DNA from: an uncultured Acidobacteriota bacterium
GTDB lineage: Bacteria > Acidobacteriota > Terriglobia > Bryobacterales > Bryobacteraceae
Reading direction: 5' to 3'
NCBI GenBank assembly: GCA_902825945.1
Contig: CADECY010000017.1
Location: forward strand, 1 to 64,000
Length of the DNA stretch: 64,000 nt
Within the stretch, counting starts at the first letter, position 1; every line of letters starts with the position of its first letter. The position numbers were made by a program, and so were the translations under genes. This document shows positions 645 to 11,688 of this stretch, in pieces. The notes beneath the pieces are model-generated. The model saw only the letters and a program-made list of their open reading frames with translations. It ran no database searches and was not told the origin of the DNA.

Positions 645-1538
645 TCAACCCCGGAGATGGTTCTTGAAATGGTCGAGCGTCCGCTTCCAGGCCAACTTCG
701 CCGCCGCCTCGTCATAACGAGGCGTGGTGTCGTTGTGGAAGCCGTGATTGGCGCCCTCGTACATGTGCGCGGCGTAGCTCACATGATTCGCCTTCAACGC
801 CTCTTCGTAGGCGGGCCAGCCGCCATTGATGCGGGTATCGAGCGAAGCGTAGTGCAGCAGAATCGCAGCCTTGATTTTCGGAACGTCAGCCGCTTGCGGC
901 TGACTCCCGTAGAACGGAACCGCCGCGGCGAGATCGGCGCCCAGCCGGACGGCGAGCATGTTGCAGATGCCACCGCCAAAGCAGAATCCCACAGCGCCAA
1001 GCTTGCCCGAAGAATCCTTGCGTGCCTTCAGCCAACGGGCCGCGGCCACGAAGTCCTCGGCCATCTTGGCGCGATCCACTTTCGCGAAGAGCTTGCCACC
1101 CTGTTCGTTGTCACCCGGAAATCCGCCCACGCTCGTGAGCCCGTCCGGAGCAAACGCGATGAAGTTCTCGGTAGCCAAGCGGCGGGCGACATCCTCGATG
1201 TAGGGATTCAGTCCGCGATTCTCATGAACCACGAGCACCACCGGAAGCTTGCCCTTCGCCTTGGCGGGACGTGCAAGATAGCCCCTGATCGAGCCGTTGC
1301 CTTGCGGCGAATCGACAGTGGCGGCTTCGGTCTTGATGCGCTTGTCATCCTTGGGAACCTGCTGCGCCCAGGCATAGTTGGGCCGCAGCGCCTCGAGCAG
1401 GCCCGCCGCGGTGAGTCCACCCACGGCGAATTTCTTCGCGCCCTCGAGAAAGTCCCTGCGTTCGATGTCGCCATGGACGTAGAGGTCGAAAAGTGTCAGG
1501 AGTTCCTGCGGAAAATCGGCGGCGGTTTTGCGTTCCAT
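645..1538 (-). CDS. Dienelactone hydrolase family protein with Tat-like signal
   Basis: A 297-residue alpha/beta hydrolase of the carboxymethylenebutenolidase family. The N-terminus has an RRDFL twin-arginine-like motif followed by a hydrophobic stretch ending in AWAQ, so export by the Tat system is likely. The catalytic features are a VVHENRGL oxyanion strand, GFCFGGG carrying the nucleophile cysteine, and GANHGFHN carrying the histidine. The frame remains open further upstream to 1898, but the ATG at 1538 is preferred because AGAAGGGA sits upstream of it and because an upstream start would run through the divergent transporter gene. Family members hydrolyse dienelactones in chloroaromatic degradation, though many act on other esters and lactones, so the substrate here is unknown. 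It diverges from Oar-like transporter 1 with 84 bases between starts. Confidence 0.88.
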
Positions 1539-1622
1539 ACGAGTGGTCCCTTCTGGCGGAGGATAACACAGCACACCGGCCGGATCTTTGACTCCGCTCC
1601 GCGAATGTTGTATCAACGATCC

Positions 1623-4600
1623 ATGCAACGACTCGCTTTGTTGGCCGGCCCCTGCCTGATCGCGGCCGTGCTCTTCTCCCAGTCGATCACAGGCTCGATC
1701 GAAGGAGCGGTGAGCGATCCCACGGGCCTGCCCATGCAGAACATCTCCGTTCGTCTCACGCAGACCGCGACAGGAGCCGCGCGCGAAGCCTCTACAGGCG
1801 AGCGCGGCTCTTTCCTGTTCGGAAGCGTGCCTCCGGGCGAGTATTCGCTGCGGGTTTCCGCATCCGGGTTCAAGCAACTCGAGCGGCCGGGAATCCACTT
1901 GACGGCGTCGGAGAAACTCGCGGTCGGCACGTTGACGCTCGAGATCGGACAGACCACCGAACAGGTGGTCGTTCAGGACCAGATCGTGGCGGTGCAGACG
2001 GCGAGCGCCGAGCGGTCCGGCGTGCTGACGGGCGCGCAGGTGGAGAACATCGCAATCCGCGGACGCAATGTGATGAACCTGCTACGGCTGCTTCCGGGTG
2101 TCGTGGATCTGAGCGAGCCCGAAGCGATCTCGCGCAACTGGAACGTCAACGTGAACGGAATGCGCGCTTCCACCAACGCGGTCATGCTCGATGGCATGAC
2201 TGTCAACGCGATCGGCAACAACAACGTCAACACCGTGAGTATCAGTCTCGACGCGGTGGCGGAAGTGAAGGTACTGCTCAGCAACTATCAGGCCGAGTTC
2301 GGGCGCCTTTCCGGCGCGAACGTACAGATCATCACCAAGTCCGGCACGCGCGACTATCACGGCCTCGTTTCGTACTTCAAGCGGCATGAGCAATTCAACG
2401 CCAACAACTTTTTCAATAATTTCCTGGGCCAAGCCAAGCCTCGATACCGCTTCAATACCTGGAACTACAATGTGGGCGGGCCCGTGCCTGTTCCTGGGGG
2501 CTTCAACCGCAGGCGCGACAAGCTGTTCTTCTTCTGGTCACAGGAGTTCTGGCCGCTGATCGTCAATCAGCCGATCTCGCAGCGGACTTCGCCGACGGCC
2601 GCCGAGCGGGGCGGCGATTTCTCGCAGTCGCTCGACGTGAACAACCGGCTCATCGTCGTACGCGATCCGTCGACGCGGCAGCCCGTCCCGGGGAACCGGA
2701 TTCCCACGAGCCAGCTCGATCCGAACGGGCGCGCTCTGCTGAGCGTGTTTCCGCAACCGAACTTTTTCGACCGCACCGTTTCCGCGGGCCGCTACAACTA
2801 TGTCTTCCAGGGACAGAACCGGACGCCGCTCCGCACGCACACCGGCAAGGTGGACTTCAACGCGAATCCGCGAAACTCGATCGCGTTCAGCTTCACACTT
2901 TCTTCCGACATCAACGAAGGCGGGCTCGGACTGCCAGGAACGAACCGCCCCAACTGGGAGCAGATGATCCAGAGCGCATCACGCCCGGGCCGGATCGTCG
3001 TGGGTCGATACACGCGCGTCTTCAGCCCGGTGCTGCTCAACGAACTGAATATCGGATTCAGCAAGAGGCCCGAACTCGACTCGACACCGGATGCCGAGTT
3101 AAGGCGTAATCAGCGCGAGACGATCGGCTTCCGCGCGCCGCAGTTTTCGCCGGCGAGCAATCCGCTGGGAGTGATCCCGAACGCGACCTTCGCCGGAATT
3201 TCGCAGCCGCTCGATCTGCGCATCGAGGGCCGGTTTCCGCACAGCGCCTCGCACGACACGCTCAGCATCACGGACAACATCACGAAGTCGCTCTCCGGCC
3301 ACACTCTCAAGGCGGGCTTCTACTTCGACACGATCTGGCGCGGCTCCTACAATCCACTCAATTTCAACGGACTCTACGATTTCGGCACCAGCGCCAACAA
3401 TCCGCTCGACACGGCACATCCTTACGCCAACACGCTCTACGGAGTCTTCAACACTTACACTGAGGCGTCGGCGCGGCCCTATACCAACTACATCACCCGC
3501 AACATCGAATGGTTTGCGCAGGACACCTGGAAGGTGAACAGCCACCTGACGCTCGACTTCGGCATGCGCTTCCAGTGGATACCGCCGTTCGACGTTCGGA
3601 ACGACACGCTGAGCGCGTTCCTCGAATCCCGGTTCGATCGAGCGAAGGCTCCGCAACTAATCGGGCCAGCTTCGGTCAACGGCGCCCGAGTGGGCGTTCA
3701 TCCCGTGACGGGTGCGGTGTTTCCGGCGGCGGCGATCGGTGCGTTCGCGCCGGGAACCGGAGATCCGCTGAACGGGCTGGTGGTCGCGGAGCGCGATTCC
3801 ACGGTGATCCTCAACGATCGCGGTGTCCACTTCGCGCCGCGCATCGGCTTCGCATACGATCCATTTGGAACCGGCAAGACCGCGATCCGCGGCGGACTAG
3901 GGCTGTTCTACAACCGTGAGTCCGCCGGATTTCTGACGAACGCGCTCACCCAGGCGCCGCTCGTCGATTCGCCCACCGTGTTTTACGGCACATTCGCCAA
4001 TCTCGCGGGCGCGCGCGCACTGAGCTTCCCGCAGGATCTGACCGCGATCGATCCGGTGGCGAAGCTGCCCGGCGCCATCAACTACAGCCTCGCGGTGCAA
4101 CGCAACGTGGGGTTCAGCACGGTGCTGGATGTCGCCTACGTCGCCTCGCTCGGCCGGCACCTGCAGTGGCGCCGCAACCTGAACGCGATTCCGTTTGGGA
4201 CCAATTTCCGCCCGGAAAACGCGGACCCCGCCAATACACGCGTGCCGCTTCCGCAGAACTTCCTGCGGCCCTACGGGGGCTTCGGAAACATTCCGAATGT
4301 CGAGTTCGCTAGTTCCTCGAACTATCATTCGCTCCAGATCTCGGCGGACCGGCGCTTCTCGCGCGGACTTCAGTACGGAGTTGCCTACACGTGGTCGAAG
4401 TCGATGGACTACAACAGCGCGGAGGGCGAAGCGGTCAGCAACTTCGTGGCGCGCCGCGTTTGGAACTATGGTCCTTCGTCGTTCGACCGGATGCACGTGC
4501 TGCGGGTGAACTGGCTGTACGATCTCCCGAATCCGGGCGCGGTGCCGAAGGGGCTGCGGCACGCTCTCCACAACTGGCAGCTCTCCGGAATCTACGGCAT

Positions 4601-5045
4601 CACTTCCGGACAGCCGCTGGCGATCGGGCTTTCGACCACGACGCCGATCGATATCACGGGTTCGCCCACCGATGGCGCACGAGTCGTGTTGACGGGGAAT
4701 CCGAACCTGCCACGCGGCGACCGGACGTTCCGGCGCAACTTCGATACGAGCACGGTGCGGCTCCCGGCGGTGGGCACGATCGGCAACTCCGAGCGCTTCC
4801 CGATCCGCGGACCCTGGGCTGACAACTGGGACCTAACGCTGTTCAAGAACATCCCCATCCGAGAGCGGATGCGCGTGCAGTTCCGCTGGGAACTCTACAA
4901 CGCGCTGAACCACACGCAGTTCACAGCCGTCGACACCGGCGCGCGGTTCGACGCGCAGGGCAATCAAGCGAACGCGCGGTTGGGTGAGTTCACCGCCGCG
5001 CGGAACGCGCGAGTCATGCAGTTTGCGCTGCGGTTCTACTTCTGA
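1623..5045 (+). CDS. Oar-like TonB-dependent outer-membrane transporter 1
   Basis: About 1140 residues. A signal peptide ([10 protein letters not shown] to LFSQS) is followed by a carboxypeptidase-regulatory-like beta-sandwich ([12 protein letters not shown], then a [14 protein letters not shown] segment), a plug region with [15 protein letters not shown] and [15 protein letters not shown], and a long beta-barrel ending in the aromatic signature LRFYF. This is the Oar/SusC-like architecture that is greatly expanded in Solibacter-type Acidobacteriota and is taken to import large or complexed ligands using TonB energy. The frame is open from 657, but that upstream part antisenses the hydrolase gene; ATG 1605 (MLYQRS) and ATG 1623 are both possible, and 1623 gives the clean signal peptide. 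Substrate unknown. Confidence 0.88.
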
Positions 5046-5109: not shown

Positions 5110-5670
5110 TCACGGGCGGTCGAATTGTTTCTTCATATTCGGCCATCCGAAGGTCCCTTCCGCGAACGCGGCGGCGGACCAAAGGTTCCTCACTTCACCG
5201 ATGGGCATGTCATCCATTTCGCTGACCACCCCGACGAATGTGAGGAGGCTCTCCTCGGCCGGTTCCCAGCTCAGTATTGGCCAGGAAAGCGCGGCAATCG
5301 CGTCACATCCTTCGAGCATCGGAATGTGGCCCGCCCTGACACTTCGCACCAAGCCGAGCAAGGCAACCCTCAAGGTGCGTTCCCTCATGGTTCGCAGTTC
5401 GGGATCGAGGCCTTGCAGCATTGGTGACGGCGGAACCTCTCCGTGACTCGGGCTCCGCACGTACTTGAGCGCATCGAGTTCCGACGCGCCGAATTCGACG
5501 AAGTTTCCCCGCGCTTCATCGAGGGCGACTCGATTGGCGCCGCCCGTGAAACCAGAGTCCTCGTTCTGAACCGGATCGTCCTCCCAGAAACAGACCGGGC
5601 AGATTTCGTAGCCGCCCGGATCGGAGAGCGTCAGGAATCCACAGCAGCGGCATGGATACGTTCTGGTCAC
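5110..5670 (-). CDS. CPCC-motif cysteine-rich domain protein
   Basis: A 186-residue cytoplasmic protein starting VTRTYPCRCCGF. The N-terminus has two cysteine clusters, CRCCGF and ICPVCFWEDD, the pattern of the CPCC family (PF14206 type), which probably bind a metal. The rest has no recognised domain. The GTG at 5670 shares bases with the TGA of the upstream permease-amidohydrolase gene (GTGA overlap), which supports this start and translational coupling. It is the last gene of the minus-strand run starting at 11688. Family function is unknown; it is often found singly as a small cargo gene. A longer reading to 5898 exists but lies inside the amidohydrolase gene. Confidence 0.72.
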   Translation of the reverse strand: MTRTYPCRCCGFLTLSDPGGYEICPVCFWEDDPVQNEDSGFTGGANRVALDEARGNFVEFGASELDALKYVRSPSHGEVPPSPMLQGLDPELRTMRERTLRVALLGLVRSVRAGHIPMLEGCDAIAALSWPILSWEPAEESLLTFVGVVSEMDDMPIGEVRNLWSAAAFAEGTFGWPNMKKQFDRP

Positions 5671-7856
5671 CGCTGGTCGAACAAATCCTGCCGGTCGATC
5701 CGCTCGCCTTTCAACAGCACCGATGAGATCCGCTCGGTCGCCGCGATGTCGGTGAGCGGATTTCCATCGACGATCAGCAGTGACGCCTCGTAGCCGGGCT
5801 TGATCATTCCGATCCGGTTCTCCGCGCCGATGATCTTCGCGGCGTTGGACGTCGCGGCCTGCAATGCGACGGAAGGCGGAACGCCCGCCTGAACCCAAAG
5901 CTGCAGTTCGCGGTGAATCGCCGGGCCGTGGAACGTCAGCGGATTCCCGGCGTCGGTCCCGGCTACGAGCTTGACTCCCGCTTGCCAGGCGCGCTTCAGG
6001 TTATCCAGTTGCTGCTCGACGTTCGCCGGATACGGGAACGCCGCTCCCTTTCCGCTTTCGATCACCGCGCGTGTTTGGCGCAGGAAATCGGGGCTCGGTG
6101 CTACTTGCTGCACGAGGCTGCGGGATAGCAGGTCCGTCTTGCGTTGCTGAAGGTGCGTCACCGCTTCCACCACGGAAAGTGCCGGATCGTAGGCGGCGCC
6201 CTGTTGCCTCATGAGGGCGAATAGTGAATCGGGGATCTTCTCGCGGGCCCCGTGCTCGATGGTCGAAGCTCCGGCGGCAGCCGCGTCGGCGATATCGGCG
6301 GCATCGCCCGTGTGCACGGCGAGCGGCAGCCCTTCCGCCTTCGCTTGCCGCGCGATCGCCGTGAAGATCGCACGATCCATTCTCTGGAACGGCATCCCCG
6401 CGAAGCCCGAATCGAGTACGGCCTTGATCGCCTGCGCGCCCTGCTTCTTCAACTCGCTCACCATTCTGGCCGCTTGCTCGGGCGACTCGGGCAAACGCAC
6501 GAACTCGCGATCGGCCTGCTCACGCACCTGAGGCGGCGCGTTCTTCAGGATCTCGGTGCCGTGTCCGCCACGCGCGGTGAACAGCGGACCCGCCGCGAAC
6601 AATTCGGCGCCCTGCCAGATTCCGCGATCCATGTCGCGCTTCAATGCCAGTGCGGCCGTCGTGAAGTCGCCTACCGAACGGACCGCGATCACACCGCAGA
6701 ACAATTGCGCGGCAAGCGAGCGGCGCTGGGTCTTGGCGAGATCGAACGGCGCACCGGATTCCATCGATCCGCCCGTGGCGCCGAGGTGGACATGCAGATC
6801 GATCAGGCCCGGCATGATCGTCTTGCCCGCGGCTTCGATGGCATCCGCCCGCAGCGATTCCGGACTCGGCGGGGTGTCCCTGTATACCGCCGCGATCTTG
6901 CCTTCCTTGATCAGAACCGCGCCGTTCGGAATTACCGTGCCGTCGCCCACGAAGATCATCGCGTTGCGAATCAGGCGGGTGTGGTTGCGGCGGACCTCGC
7001 GGTCGAGCTTGCGCGCCTCATAGATGTGATCCTTCGACCAAGCCTGATAAATACCGAGCACCAAAAACGGAGCGAGCACAGCAAGCACCCAAGCCTTGGC
7101 CTTGCGAGGTAGCTTCTCTTCCTTTTCCCACCGGAACAGCTTGGTGGCGACAAAGGTGCCCACGATGGCCGAAAGCACGAGACCCGCGACCGACTGCCAG
7201 TTGGCGGCAATGCCTTCCGACCGCAGCATCACGTGTTGAATGCCGGTATTGAGGTACGAAGCCGGCAGAAACTGCGAAACGATCTGCGCGCCCGAGGGCA
7301 GCATGCTAACCGGAATCGTGGCTCCGCTGAGGAACAACATCGGCATGTAGAGAATCTGGATGAGCACGTTGCTCTCTGCCGCCGAGTTCGCCACCGCGGC
7401 CACGATCAGGCCGATGGCACGGAAAGCCAAACAGGCGACTGTGACCAGCGCGAACAGCGAGAATGGGCGCTCCGGCAGCGGCATTCCGTGAAGGAAATGG
7501 CTGAGCAGAATGATCATGACCGCCGACGGCAGATAGAGCAGCCAGCCGGTGACCATCGATGCGACGAGCAGCGGCGCGGGCGAGATCGGCGTGACCTTGT
7601 ATCGGCGCAGAATTCCGGCCTCGCGTTCGACGACCGCGCGAATGCCCGCGCCGAAGAGTCCGCTGCCGAGGATACCGATCACGATCACCATCGGCACGAT
7701 GCGCAGCATCGCACCCGCGCCCGCGTTGCCATCGCCCATGAACTGGCCGAAGGCGAAGAAGAAGATCAGCGGGAAAACGTAGTTGAAGAACAGCACCGAT
7801 CGCTCGCGGAAGGCGAGCCGCAGATTCAACCGGATCAGCGCCAGATATGCGTTCAC
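5667..7856 (-). CDS. ABC-2 type permease fused to amidohydrolase
   Basis: A single 729-residue frame with two unrelated domains. Residues 1-245 form an ABC-2 export permease with six predicted membrane spans (about 21-40, 50-72, 95-118, 131-157, 163-185, 222-240) and the VVEREAGILRRYKVTPIS coupling segment. After a charged stretch (RWEKEEK) there is a seventh span near 255-272. Residues 290-729 form an imidazolonepropionase-like amidohydrolase with metal ligands H355 and H357 (LHVHLG), K478, H515 (AVHTGD), H535 (EHG) and D635 (GTDAG), all present, so the enzyme is probably active. An even-to-odd span count puts the enzyme domain in the periplasm if the permease has its usual cytoplasmic N-terminus. 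The gene starts one base after the ATPase stop. Substrate unknown. Confidence 0.88.
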   Translation of the reverse strand: MNAYLALIRLNLRLAFRERSVLFFNYVFPLIFFFAFGQFMGDGNAGAGAMLRIVPMVIVIGILGSGLFGAGIRAVVEREAGILRRYKVTPISPAPLLVASMVTGWLLYLPSAVMIILLSHFLHGMPLPERPFSLFALVTVACLAFRAIGLIVAAVANSAAESNVLIQILYMPMLFLSGATIPVSMLPSGAQIVSQFLPASYLNTGIQHVMLRSEGIAANWQSVAGLVLSAIVGTFVATKLFRWEKEEKLPRKAKAWVLAVLAPFLVLGIYQAWSKDHIYEARKLDREVRRNHTRLIRNAMIFVGDGTVIPNGAVLIKEGKIAAVYRDTPPSPESLRADAIEAAGKTIMPGLIDLHVHLGATGGSMESGAPFDLAKTQRRSLAAQLFCGVIAVRSVGDFTTAALALKRDMDRGIWQGAELFAAGPLFTARGGHGTEILKNAPPQVREQADREFVRLPESPEQAARMVSELKKQGAQAIKAVLDSGFAGMPFQRMDRAIFTAIARQAKAEGLPLAVHTGDAADIADAAAAGASTIEHGAREKIPDSLFALMRQQGAAYDPALSVVEAVTHLQQRKTDLLSRSLVQQVAPSPDFLRQTRAVIESGKGAAFPYPANVEQQLDNLKRAWQAGVKLVAGTDAGNPLTFHGPAIHRELQLWVQAGVPPSVALQAATSNAAKIIGAENRIGMIKPGYEASLLIVDGNPLTDIAATERISSVLLKGERIDRQDLFDQR

Positions 7857-7857
7857 G

Positions 7858-8775
7858 CTACTCGCGGAGCCTCCTTCCGGTGAGTTCGATGAAGACGTCT
7901 TCGAGCGTGGGCCGTTTCAGGTGGATATCTTCGAGCTCGACTCCGCACTGGTCGATCCATTTGACGAGATCGGCCAGCGTGCGAGCCGGTCGATCCGACG
8001 TGGCGACAATGGTCCGGCGGTCCTCGCTCAGCGAGATGCGTTCACAGGCAAAGTCCGGCACGTCCGGCAAGGGCGCGGCGGCTCTTACTTCCACGCGCGA
8101 ATGGCCGAGTGTCTGCGCCTGGATCTCGCGCGGAGTACCGAGCGCGATCACCTTGCCTTGGTCCACGATCGCCACGCGATCGCAGAGACGCTCGGCCTCC
8201 TCGATGTAGTGCGTGGTGATCAGGATCGTGCGCTTCTCCTCGCGCAGTTCCGTGATCAGCTTGTGGATCTCCAGCCGGACTTGCGGATCGAGGCCTGTCG
8301 TGGGCTCGTCGAGAAATACCAGTTGCGGCTCGTTGATCAGGGCGAGCGCCAGCGCGAGGCGCTGCTTCTGGCCGCCGGAAAGCGTGGAGTAGAACGCGTT
8401 GCGCTTGTCGGCGAGTTGGAGCCGCTTCAGTACCATCATCGAATCGACACGCCGCGTGTAGAATGACGCGAACAGATCAAGCGCTTCGATTACCGTGCAC
8501 TTGTCGGGCAGATTCGTGGCCTGCAGGCAGACGCCGATCCGGTCCTTGATGCGATTCACCGCCTGATCGGGATCGAAGCCCAGCACGCGGACTTCGCCCG
8601 ACGTGCGCTGACGGATACCTTCCAGAATCTCGATCGTCGTTGTCTTTCCGGCACCGTTTGGGCCGAGCAATCCGAAGACTTCGCCCTGCTGGACCTCGAA
8701 GTCGATGCCGCGCACCGCTTCGAGATCCCCGTAGTTCTTGCGGAGCCCGCGAACGAAGATCGCCGGATCGGCCAT
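7858..8775 (-). CDS. ABC transporter ATP-binding protein (ABC-2 type exporter)
   Basis: A 305-residue ATPase with Walker A GPNGAGKTT (residues 38-46), Q-loop region, signature LSGGQKQRL, and Walker B LVFLDEPTTGLDP. It resembles the CcmA/NodI/DrrA class that pairs with ABC-2 permeases. The C-terminal extension after about residue 215 is typical of drug and antibiotic exporters. The ATG at 8775 is chosen because it lies two bases after the stop of the cytochrome gene; the in-frame extension to 8865 runs inside that gene. It directly precedes the permease-amidohydrolase fusion, so the two almost certainly form one exporter. Confidence 0.92.
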   Translation of the reverse strand: MADPAIFVRGLRKNYGDLEAVRGIDFEVQQGEVFGLLGPNGAGKTTTIEILEGIRQRTSGEVRVLGFDPDQAVNRIKDRIGVCLQATNLPDKCTVIEALDLFASFYTRRVDSMMVLKRLQLADKRNAFYSTLSGGQKQRLALALALINEPQLVFLDEPTTGLDPQVRLEIHKLITELREEKRTILITTHYIEEAERLCDRVAIVDQGKVIALGTPREIQAQTLGHSRVEVRAAAPLPDVPDFACERISLSEDRRTIVATSDRPARTLADLVKWIDQCGVELEDIHLKRPTLEDVFIELTGRRLRE

Positions 8776-8777
8776 CG

Positions 8778-9515
8778 TCAGCGGCTGGCCATCCACTTCA
8801 GGTACGCGGCCACCGAGTCGAGATCGGCGTCTGTGTACTTGGTGACGGCTTTCGAATGCCGCCACTCGGCGCCGCTCGAAAAGCTGACCTCACCCTTGGC
8901 GAACGTGCGCAGCACGGGCAGCGGCAAGGCGAGATCGTAGACCACGGTTTCGTTCGGACGCTGTTCCACGAGGAGCGCCGAAAATGTTTCGGAGCCCGCT
9001 TTTGCGAGCCGCACCGCAGAAGGCTTTCCGTTGCGCAGCGTGTCGTGATCGAAGGCACTGCTCGACAGCAGGTTCGGCCCGATTGCGATTCCCATCTCGT
9101 CGAGCGCGTGGCAAGTGGAGCATCGGCCCTCTCCGCGCACGGCGTCGAAGAACAGTTGCTTGCCGCGCTTTGCGTCCGCCGGAATGGCCGGACCCGATTC
9201 TCCGGCGCTGCCGGCGAGTTTCGGGTCGAGCTTGCCACCGGAAATCTTCACCACGTAGGCGATCACCGCCTCGAGTTCGGAGGCGTTGAGGCGCTCCTTC
9301 CAGCCCGGCATGCCCGTGTTCGGAATACCGTCTCGCGTCACTTTCCATACGAACTGGTGTTCGTAGTTCCGCCCGAGCAGCTTCGGCGCGCGCCCGGCGG
9401 TTCCGCCCGAACCGTGGCAGTAGCCCACCGCGCAGCTCTTATTGAATACCGCCGGCCCCATGTCCTGGGCCAGAGCTGCTCCCATCGCGGCCATCAAACA
9501 AATGATCCGCTTCAT
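8778..9515 (-). CDS. Secreted di-heme-type cytochrome c with one CX4CH motif
   Basis: A 245-residue exported protein with a signal peptide (MKRIICLMAAMGAALAQ). Domain 1 has C28-AVGY-C33-H34, a CX4CH heme motif instead of CXXCH, followed by a GMPGW methionine that fits an axial ligand. Domain 2 has canonical C132-ST-C135-H136 with GPNL downstream. It lies one base after the quinoprotein dehydrogenase stop, so it is probably the electron acceptor of that enzyme, as in quinohemoprotein systems. The reading CAVGYCH is clear in the sequence; whether heme is attached to the first motif cannot be told from sequence. Confidence 0.85.
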   Translation of the reverse strand: MKRIICLMAAMGAALAQDMGPAVFNKSCAVGYCHGSGGTAGRAPKLLGRNYEHQFVWKVTRDGIPNTGMPGWKERLNASELEAVIAYVVKISGGKLDPKLAGSAGESGPAIPADAKRGKQLFFDAVRGEGRCSTCHALDEMGIAIGPNLLSSSAFDHDTLRNGKPSAVRLAKAGSETFSALLVEQRPNETVVYDLALPLPVLRTFAKGEVSFSSGAEWRHSKAVTKYTDADLDSVAAYLKWMASR

Positions 9516-9516
9516 G

Positions 9517-11160
9517 CTACTTGCCCTCCGGAAGCGCGAAGACCCACAGCGTGGAGCCGGAGCGAAACTTCTCCGCTTCTGGCCAAAGCTGCGTCATCAA
9601 CCCCGCGACGGCCGAGCCCCAGCCCGAGGGTGTGGCCAGGTATTGCTTGCCCTTGACCGAATAGGTGATCGAGCTGCCGCGATGTCCGGACCCGGTCTGC
9701 ACGTTCCACAGCTTCTTGCCGGACTTGGCGTCGAGCGCGAAGAAATAGCCCTCCGGATCGCCCGTGAACACCACGTCGCCCGCGGTGCTCAGCACAGAGG
9801 CGAGCAGCGGATACTTGGCGCGATAGCTCCACTTCTTCTGTCCAGTGACGGGATCGATCGCGTCGAGGTGGCTATACGCCTCTTCACCCTTCGGGTGTTT
9901 GGGAACGAAGGTGCCGCCGAAGAAGACCTTGCCTTCGCTCGGATCTTCCGGCTGCGAAACCACGTCTTCGCACCATTCGATGGCCGTTGTGTAGAGCAGC
10001 CCGGTGCGCGGCGAGAACGATGCCTGATTCCAGCTTCGTCCGCCGCCGATGGCTGGACAAATGAATGTAGACTCGCCGGCCTTGGGTTCATTCCGGCCGG
10101 TGAGATTGCCTTTCGCGTCGGTACCGGTGATCCAGTTGATGTGCTTCACGATTGGGTATCCGGAGACGAACTCACCGGTCGTCCGATCGTTCACGAACAC
10201 GTACCCGCCCTTGTTCACGTTGAGCAGGAGCTTGCGTTGCATGCCCTTCACCTGGAGGTCGAGCAGGATGTTTTCGTACGCCGTATCGAAGTCCCAAACG
10301 TCGTGCGGAACCTGCTGGAAGTGCCATTTCAACTGGCCGGAATCGGCGTCGAGCGCGACCACCGAGTCCGTGTAGAGGTTGTCACCCTTGCGCGATCCAC
10401 CATAGAAGTCCGCCGCGGGATTCCCGATCGACCAATAGACCAAGTTCAGATCGGCATCATAGGATCCGGTCATCCACGAAGACCCGCCGCCGTACTTCCA
10501 CGAATCGCCGGACCAGGAATCGTTGCCCTTCTCGCCGGGCGCGGGAATTGTCCAGAAGCGCCACGCCTGGCGTCCGGTCTTCGCGTCGAACGCGACGACG
10601 TATCCGCGATGCGCCGAATCGCCACCCGTGGTTCCCACCACCACCTTGTCCTTGACGATCAACGGTGCGCCGGTGATATTGCAGCCGCACTGATTCACGT
10701 CCTCGACATTGGTTTTCCAGAGTTCCTTGCCGGTCTTTTGATCGACGGCGACGACGTAGTTGTCGAGCGTTCCGATGTAGACGCGACCGTGTCCAACAGC
10801 CACGCCGCGATTGAACGTTCCATAAAAGACAGTGAAGCCCTTCGGAAGCTGGTAGGTGTACTTCCAAATCTCCTTGCCCGTCGCCGCGTCGAGCGCGAAG
10901 ATGTGATTCCGCGACGTGGAGACGTACATGACGCCATCCACGACGATGGGCGTCGCCTGGAATCCGCCCTCGTAGTCGCCGGTTTGGAACGCCCACGCCA
11001 CACCGAGCTTCGAGACGTTCTTGGCGTTGATCTGGTTGAGCGACGAGTACCGCCAGGAGCGCTGGGTGCCGCCATAGTGCGGCCAATCGGCCGATGTGGT
11101 TCCGTCATCGGCGGCGAACAACGCGGCAGCCGCCAGAAAGGTGATAGCCGGAGTCTTCAT
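9517..11160 (-). CDS. Quinoprotein (PQQ-dependent-type) alcohol dehydrogenase-like protein
   Basis: A 547-residue exported eight-bladed propeller with a signal peptide ending LFAADD and repeated AxDxxTGKxxW tryptophan-docking motifs. The active-site region reads HDVWDFD, giving the catalytic aspartate D290 and a second aspartate D292 two residues later. N247 (SIGNPA) matches the metal-ligand asparagine. Two features differ from methanol dehydrogenase: the vicinal cysteine pair is QCGCN (C158, C160), and the usual GAE metal glutamate position reads GGD (D181). I recall an acidobacterial quinoprotein family nicknamed acido-empty because carriers lack PQQ synthesis; this may be a member. It follows the DJ-1 gene by three bases and precedes the cytochrome by one. 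Confidence 0.87.
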   Translation of the reverse strand: MKTPAITFLAAAALFAADDGTTSADWPHYGGTQRSWRYSSLNQINAKNVSKLGVAWAFQTGDYEGGFQATPIVVDGVMYVSTSRNHIFALDAATGKEIWKYTYQLPKGFTVFYGTFNRGVAVGHGRVYIGTLDNYVVAVDQKTGKELWKTNVEDVNQCGCNITGAPLIVKDKVVVGTTGGDSAHRGYVVAFDAKTGRQAWRFWTIPAPGEKGNDSWSGDSWKYGGGSSWMTGSYDADLNLVYWSIGNPAADFYGGSRKGDNLYTDSVVALDADSGQLKWHFQQVPHDVWDFDTAYENILLDLQVKGMQRKLLLNVNKGGYVFVNDRTTGEFVSGYPIVKHINWITGTDAKGNLTGRNEPKAGESTFICPAIGGGRSWNQASFSPRTGLLYTTAIEWCEDVVSQPEDPSEGKVFFGGTFVPKHPKGEEAYSHLDAIDPVTGQKKWSYRAKYPLLASVLSTAGDVVFTGDPEGYFFALDAKSGKKLWNVQTGSGHRGSSITYSVKGKQYLATPSGWGSAVAGLMTQLWPEAEKFRSGSTLWVFALPEGK

Positions 11161-11163
11161 GCG

Positions 11164-11688
11164 TTACCTCGAAAGGACGTCCAAACAGGCCTTCATGAAC
11201 GCGGGCAGATCCTCGGGCTTGCGCGATGTGACGAGATTGCCGTCGACCACCACTTCCGCGTCGATCCATTCGGCGCCGGCGTTGACCATGTCGTCTTTGA
11301 TCGCGAAGAACGAGGTCGCCTTGCGGCCCGTCAGCATTCCATGCGCGGAACAGAGCATCCAGCCGGCGTGGCAGATCGCCGCGACAAGCTTGCCCTGCGC
11401 GTTGACATCGGCGACCAACTTCTTCGCGGCGGCGTGGCGCCGCATGTGATCGGGCGCGAATCCGCCCGGAATGATCATTCCCGCGAAATCGTCCGCCGAT
11501 ACTTGGTCGTACGACTTCTGCGCGGTACACGGATAGCCGAGCTTGCTCGTGTAGGTCTGACCGGCGGCGGCACCCACCGTGATCACTTCCGCCCCTGCCT
11601 CTTGCAGGCGATAGAGCGGATACCAGAGCTCCATCTCCTGATAGACGTTGTCGACCAAAATGGCCACTTTCTTGCCTGCGAGACTCAT
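11164..11688 (-). CDS. DJ-1/PfpI family protein
   Basis: A 174-residue flavodoxin-like protein. It has the family elements VAILVDNVYQEMEL with the acidic residue, IIPGGFAPDHMR, and AAICHAGWML with the nucleophilic-elbow cysteine followed by histidine. It has no signal peptide, so it is cytoplasmic. Relatives include PfpI/YhbO-type proteins that act as proteases, glyoxalases or deglycases under carbonyl stress. As first gene of the run that makes a quinoprotein dehydrogenase, an aldehyde-protection role is possible, but this is inference. The 45-base gap to the divergent FG-GAP gene holds the promoters of both. Confidence 0.9.
   Translation of the reverse strand: MSLAGKKVAILVDNVYQEMELWYPLYRLQEAGAEVITVGAAAGQTYTSKLGYPCTAQKSYDQVSADDFAGMIIPGGFAPDHMRRHAAAKKLVADVNAQGKLVAAICHAGWMLCSAHGMLTGRKATSFFAIKDDMVNAGAEWIDAEVVVDGNLVTSRKPEDLPAFMKACLDVLSR

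Follow-up and report, generated by a model that had tools for sequence, protein, structure and literature searches.

A conserved ABC-2 permease-amidohydrolase fusion in Bryobacteraceae and the recurrent loss of its metal site

The gene run and the fusion protein

The window, i.e. the whole 64,000-nucleotide stretch analysed here, comes from an uncultured acidobacterium of the family Bryobacteraceae (GCA_902825945.1, contig CADECY010000017.1, positions 1 to 64,000). It carries on its minus strand a run of five genes separated by gaps of just 1-3 nt. These are, in order: a DJ-1/PfpI-family protein (11164..11688), which is the conserved first gene of the run; a PQQ-dependent dehydrogenase of the methanol/ethanol family (9517..11160); a cytochrome c (8778..9515); a DrrA-like ABC ATPase (7858..8775, Pfam ABC_tran), whose probable ATG start at 8775 was read from a frame that is open to 8865; and a gene for a 729-residue protein (5667..7856) in which an ABC-2 permease is fused to a seventh hydrophobic span and an amidohydrolase. 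The identical five-gene order is found in seven other genomes, and a shorter PfpI-ATPase-fusion arrangement, without the PQQ-dependent dehydrogenase and the cytochrome c, occurs at about 45 loci.

Several other features of this neighbourhood can be recorded. The PQQ protein scores 428 bits with the 'acido-empty-quinoprotein group A' model, under the cut-off of 650; this family is interesting in itself. A cysteine-rich CPCC protein (5110-5670, minus strand) has its start within the fusion gene's stop codon (GTGA overlap) and may be co-transcribed with it; it is absent from the recurring neighbours at the other loci. On the plus strand, 657-5045 encodes a TonB-dependent-type outer membrane protein with a carboxypeptidase-regulatory-like domain, and this frame overlaps a dienelactone hydrolase on the opposite strand, so that its listed start is too early.

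The fusion gene is a single open frame with a GTG start and no internal stops. It is preceded by an AGGAGG motif (7875-7870) lying within the 3' end of the ATPase gene, and 1 nt separates it from the TAG stop of the latter (7860-7858). Pfam models recover both halves of the product, namely ABC2_membrane at residues 4-210 (PF01061, E 3e-21) and Amidohydro_1 at residues 346-718 (E 9e-30). An initial annotation of this DNA had described one frame with a six-span permease, a charged RWEKEEK segment, a seventh span and a complete amidohydrolase, and all of these elements are recovered by the open reading frame, the Pfam matches, the hydrophobicity peaks and structure prediction. It had also proposed folding the 729 residues with AlphaFold and looking for two-domain homologues next to an ATPase. 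The former, with an alignment of 56 sequences from the own locus as input, yielded a confident model (pLDDT 91.1, pTM 0.88) with the helices of the permease extending to residue 239, span seven at 251-274 and a linker helix at 276-290 (6987..7031), followed by a beta-sandwich and a barrel; the latter recovered such homologues, with the neighbouring ATPase, across the family and in deeper fusions of other Acidobacteriota.

The permease half (residues 1-245, 7122..7856) shows six hydrophobic peaks ahead of span seven and, in accordance with its ABC2_membrane match, belongs to the six-span ABC-2 type. It scores 49 bits with the NCBIfam drrB model, below the curated cut-off of 223, and is therefore termed DrrB-like and not classed as DrrB. 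The fold was compared through a same-genus orthologue, L079, residues 1-253 of which match the transmembrane domain of ABCH-9C (8yzp) with Z 22.5 and rmsd 2.9 over 243 aligned residues.

The enzyme half (residues 294-729, 5670..6977) is a cog1228-type amidohydrolase, with an HxH, K, H, H, D site on a (beta/alpha)8 barrel accompanied by a beta-sandwich. The six ligands named in the initial annotation are all at the positions given there and align with the conserved residues of the solved cog1228-type enzymes 3mtw and 2qs8: H355 and H357 of the HxH motif (6786..6794), the metal-bridging lysine K478 (6423..6425), H515 (6312..6314), H535 (6252..6254) and the catalytic or metal-binding D635 (5952..5954). 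The best structural matches are likewise cog1228-type, with three tied at the top: 9kov (Z 45.1, rmsd 2.7, 371 aligned), the Xaa-Pro dipeptidase 2qs8 (Z 44.9, rmsd 2.6, 390 aligned) and the Arg/Lys carboxypeptidase 3mtw (Z 44.1, rmsd 2.9, 391 aligned); structural kinship extends to ochratoxin-degrading amidohydrolases (Z 42). With 2qs8, Cc2672 (3mtw), the prolidase 3n2c and the ochratoxinases the domain shares the whole fold, all metal ligands and 25-29% identity over ~390 residues, but these enzymes are free-standing and none of them is attached to a transporter. The Xaa-Pro dipeptidase model NF051886 gives 176.6 bits, under its curated equivalog cut-off of 500. Going by kinship, the likely chemistry of the intact form is the hydrolysis of an amide beside a carboxylate, the arrangement of N-acyl amino acids or of Xaa-Pro and Xaa-Arg dipeptides.

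Span seven and the placement of the enzyme

The seventh hydrophobic helix (residues 251-274, 7035..7106) appears both in the AlphaFold model and as a hydrophobicity peak centred at ~257-266, after the RWEKEEK segment, and contains an invariant proline and an invariant glycine. Its hydrophobic segment is retained in all members and also in unfused relatives, of which L158, L165 and L167 terminate in it; the span therefore predates or outlives the fusion, and an origin of the span together with the fusion is ruled out. Permeases that stop after span seven are rare members, represented by L158, L165 and L156, the last of which adds a short unrelated tail. L165 belongs to a different family (f8), so that lateral transfer or loss is possible. 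Inspection of the translated frames downstream of the unfused permeases L156, L158, L165 and L167 revealed no free amidohydrolase genes. In two related permeases with span seven, L168 and L169, the place of the amidohydrolase is taken by a long tail rich in Pro, Ala and Thr, together with an unassigned C-terminal region.

The distribution of charges in the permease (net +3.2 at the N-terminus, +2.9 in loop 2-3 and +2.0 in loop 6-7, with the remaining loops about zero or negative) fits a cytoplasmic N-terminus and six spans, so that span seven would put the enzyme outside. Over the 40 residues that follow span seven the net charge, at a family mean of +3.8, is likewise positive; hence, with positive charge on both flanks, the positive-inside rule alone does not settle the orientation of this span. 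Further indications come from the relatives of the enzyme, the nearest free-standing ones of which bear signal peptides, a lipobox or an N-terminal anchor. In the deep fusion L166 a CIA30 domain lies C-terminal to the same enzyme, and secreted free-standing amidohydrolases with a CIA30 tail are present in the phylum. Such amidohydrolase-CIA30 proteins of Acidobacteriota, e.g. L183, L184 and L186, are the nearest free-standing relatives of L166 and share its CIA30 tail, but possess a signal peptide or anchor in place of the permease. To these may be added the Pro/Ala/Thr-rich tail after the same span in L168 and L169, and the depletion of cysteine in the enzyme domain (0.16-0.22% vs 0.9% in the ATPase). 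Taken together, these sequence features indicate that the amidohydrolase probably sits outside the inner membrane. The initial proposal that an extra span moves the enzyme to the periplasm is thus supported as to the outer location, by the charges, the secreted relatives, the CIA30 domain and the low cysteine content; it does not hold as to the span being an innovation of the fusion, for L158, L165 and L167 have it too. Some secreted enzymes of the amidohydrolase superfamily are known to cleave amides extracellularly, e.g. the bile salt hydrolases of Bilophila (PMC13081902, preprint).

Distribution of the fusion and loss of the metal site

A whole-genome search found the permease with span seven in 159 of the family's 237 genomes. 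Among those examined it is nearly always fused, and in most of the carriers listed the match to the full-length fusion protein runs from end to end. The 95 fused proteins of the family that were read, a sample enriched for short frames, have the ATPase gene directly upstream in every case but one (L164). Deeper fusions with the same ATPase neighbour are present in other Acidobacteriota (L166/L180, in two genomes, L181 and L187), and these all retain the six ligands. As the in-frame fusion recurs throughout the family, including genomes assembled into one to three contigs, it is neither a chance frame nor an assembly error: the fusion is real, conserved and located beside its ATPase.

In the enzyme-domain tree the fused forms group together, with SH-aLRT support of 100 for the family group and 91 once L181 and L166 are included, which is compatible with one old origin of the fusion, L181 being a long branch. 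The permease tree has the unfused L167 as sister to L166, and so loss or a second fusion are both possible. No plasmid record reaches 80% coverage of the query, and among the matches listed the best align with the enzyme half only. In the open-access papers searched we came across no ABC-2 permease joined to an amidohydrolase, an absence that is weak evidence in itself.

Orthologues of the window protein differ in the state of the metal site. Forty-one of the 95 family members have all six ligands and 51 are without at least one, so that an intact site is far from universal among them; of the remaining three, two run off the end of a contig and one is split. The deficiency is usually extensive, with four to six ligands missing in 44 of the 51. 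Because short frames were fetched on purpose, 51/95 overstates the share of losses; in a sample that takes about one genome from each genus, 11 of 19 are intact and 8 of 19 ligand-deficient (L042 is excluded from this count, its genome being outside that first sample). The split member, L111 (G076:C25, ~2998-4400, reverse strand), has its fusion frame broken in the barrel, with the rest of the enzyme (466-728) in another frame, owing to a sequencing error or a recent frameshift in a clade that is otherwise intact.

In most losses the barrel centre (about residues 425-555) has been cut out in frame, while the degenerate members retain the beta-sandwich and the C-terminal motifs HGP..HREL..LWV.AG and VDGNPL.DI.ATERIS. 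Losses are also seen in genomes of one to three contigs (L151, L157, L115, L119), and an alignment-free motif check concurs for the great majority, which argues against the missing ligands being an alignment error. Mapping on the permease tree gives 19 changes among the fused rows on the best tree and at least 12 independent ones on strongly supported branches; we read these as losses because the rebuilding of a lost metal site is very unlikely. Across the remnant, dN/dS is ~0-0.3 in close degenerate pairs, within the range of intact pairs, as estimated by a simple counting method with saturation in some pairs. For the degenerate same-genus L079 the AlphaFold model has a pLDDT of 89.6 and matches 2p9b with Z 27.5 and rmsd 2.6 over 253 aligned residues. 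Given the open frames, conserved ends and low dN/dS, the degenerate copies are not pseudogenes. A link between the PfpI neighbour and ligand loss was also considered, and the overall association vanishes once relatedness is allowed for (median p 0.69).

The site is lost so often that hydrolysis cannot be required for whatever keeps the fusion, and loss in a sizeable share of genera, with a shrunken remnant still under selection, suggests that the attached domain serves the pump beyond catalysis. Hydrolysis during export, as initially proposed, can hence not be the whole function, given the many members in which metal site and barrel centre are gone and the remnant nevertheless stays in frame under purifying selection.

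A model for the exporter and parallels with known systems

The reading that we favour, at a probability of roughly 0.55, is that the ATPase (7858-8775) and the permease (5667-7856) form a two-component ABC exporter, with the cog1228-type amidohydrolase tethered by span seven on the periplasmic face, where it would process cargo when intact and have a non-catalytic binding or structural role when degenerate. ABC-2 permeases function as dimers, and two permease halves would therefore each hold one amidohydrolase domain above the exit. The intact domain would probably cleave an amide in or near the exported compound; its degenerate counterpart would probably bind or shape the cargo, or hold the dimer. 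Gene order would place such an exporter in a pathway with periplasmic alcohol oxidation.

Other accounts of the same data have to be considered. The domain could be mainly structural, stabilizing the permease dimer or capping its exit, with activity a left-over that is decaying by drift: in line with this, ligands have been lost and the barrel centre excised repeatedly and independently, while both ends of the domain, N- and C-terminal, persist under selection. However, a pure left-over should decay everywhere, and the intact lineages thus count against such decay, as the six ligands are kept across a large divergence in about half of the lineages (41/95) and in the deep fusions L166, L180, L181 and L187. 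We accordingly regard the structural account as rather unlikely. It is also conceivable that span seven is not inserted in the membrane and that the amidohydrolase acts in the cytoplasm on cargo prior to export. The positive stretch that follows the span and the invariant proline and glycine in its helix could be cited for this, but we hold it improbable in view of the hydrophobic segment kept in all members and unfused relatives, the secretion of the free-standing enzymes, the CIA30 partner and the Pro/Ala/Thr-rich tail that follow the same span in other relatives, and the depletion of cysteine in the enzyme domain.

The relationship to DrrAB-type ABC-2 exporters (PF01061, TIGR01247/TIGR01188) bears on a further account. 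As in those systems, an ATPase and a six-span permease are encoded as separate genes of one operon, and the sequence match spans the whole permease; unlike them, the window permease is extended by a seventh span and an enzyme, and the two components fall below the curated drrB and drrA cut-offs. This likeness, along with the structural kinship to ochratoxin-degrading amidohydrolases, would suit self-protection or detoxification, in which the pump expels an amide-containing toxic natural product that the outer enzyme inactivates. We see very little chance of this, since the system is present in most genomes of the family, beside the same housekeeping-like genes and not in biosynthetic clusters.

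For the favoured model of an exporter with an outer enzyme that is catalytic in some members only, the C39 domain offers a precedent: a peptidase in peptidase exporters, it has turned in toxin exporters into a non-functional C39-like domain that substrate recruitment requires (PMC6363468). In the C39 exporters and HlyB, as here, a hydrolase domain is fused to an exporter, has lost its catalytic residue in some cases and is kept, here presumably, for cargo handling (PMC6363468). However, C39 is a cysteine protease located N-terminally in type I exporters, whereas in the window protein, which lacks an N-terminal C39 fold on a type I ABC exporter, the enzyme is a metal amidohydrolase attached C-terminally to an ABC-2 permease and probably exposed on the outer side; the parallel is a likeness in the mode of working as judged by analogy, not one of membership. 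We would tentatively propose, though at slightly less than even odds, that these proteins represent a previously undescribed class of ABC-2 exporters in which, on a dozen occasions or more, an extracytoplasmic amidohydrolase has been reduced to a shortened, non-catalytic domain for cargo binding or gating, a natural series from enzyme to accessory that is parallel to but independent of the passage from C39 to C39-like domains.

If this is true, a large and poorly understood family of Acidobacteriota conserves an exporter that bears its own outer enzyme. Close relatives with and without the catalytic site, such as the window protein and L079 of the same genus, make it testable what a transporter gains from a fused enzyme after catalysis has been lost. 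The main interest of the system would lie in this repeated conversion of a fused enzyme into a non-catalytic domain.
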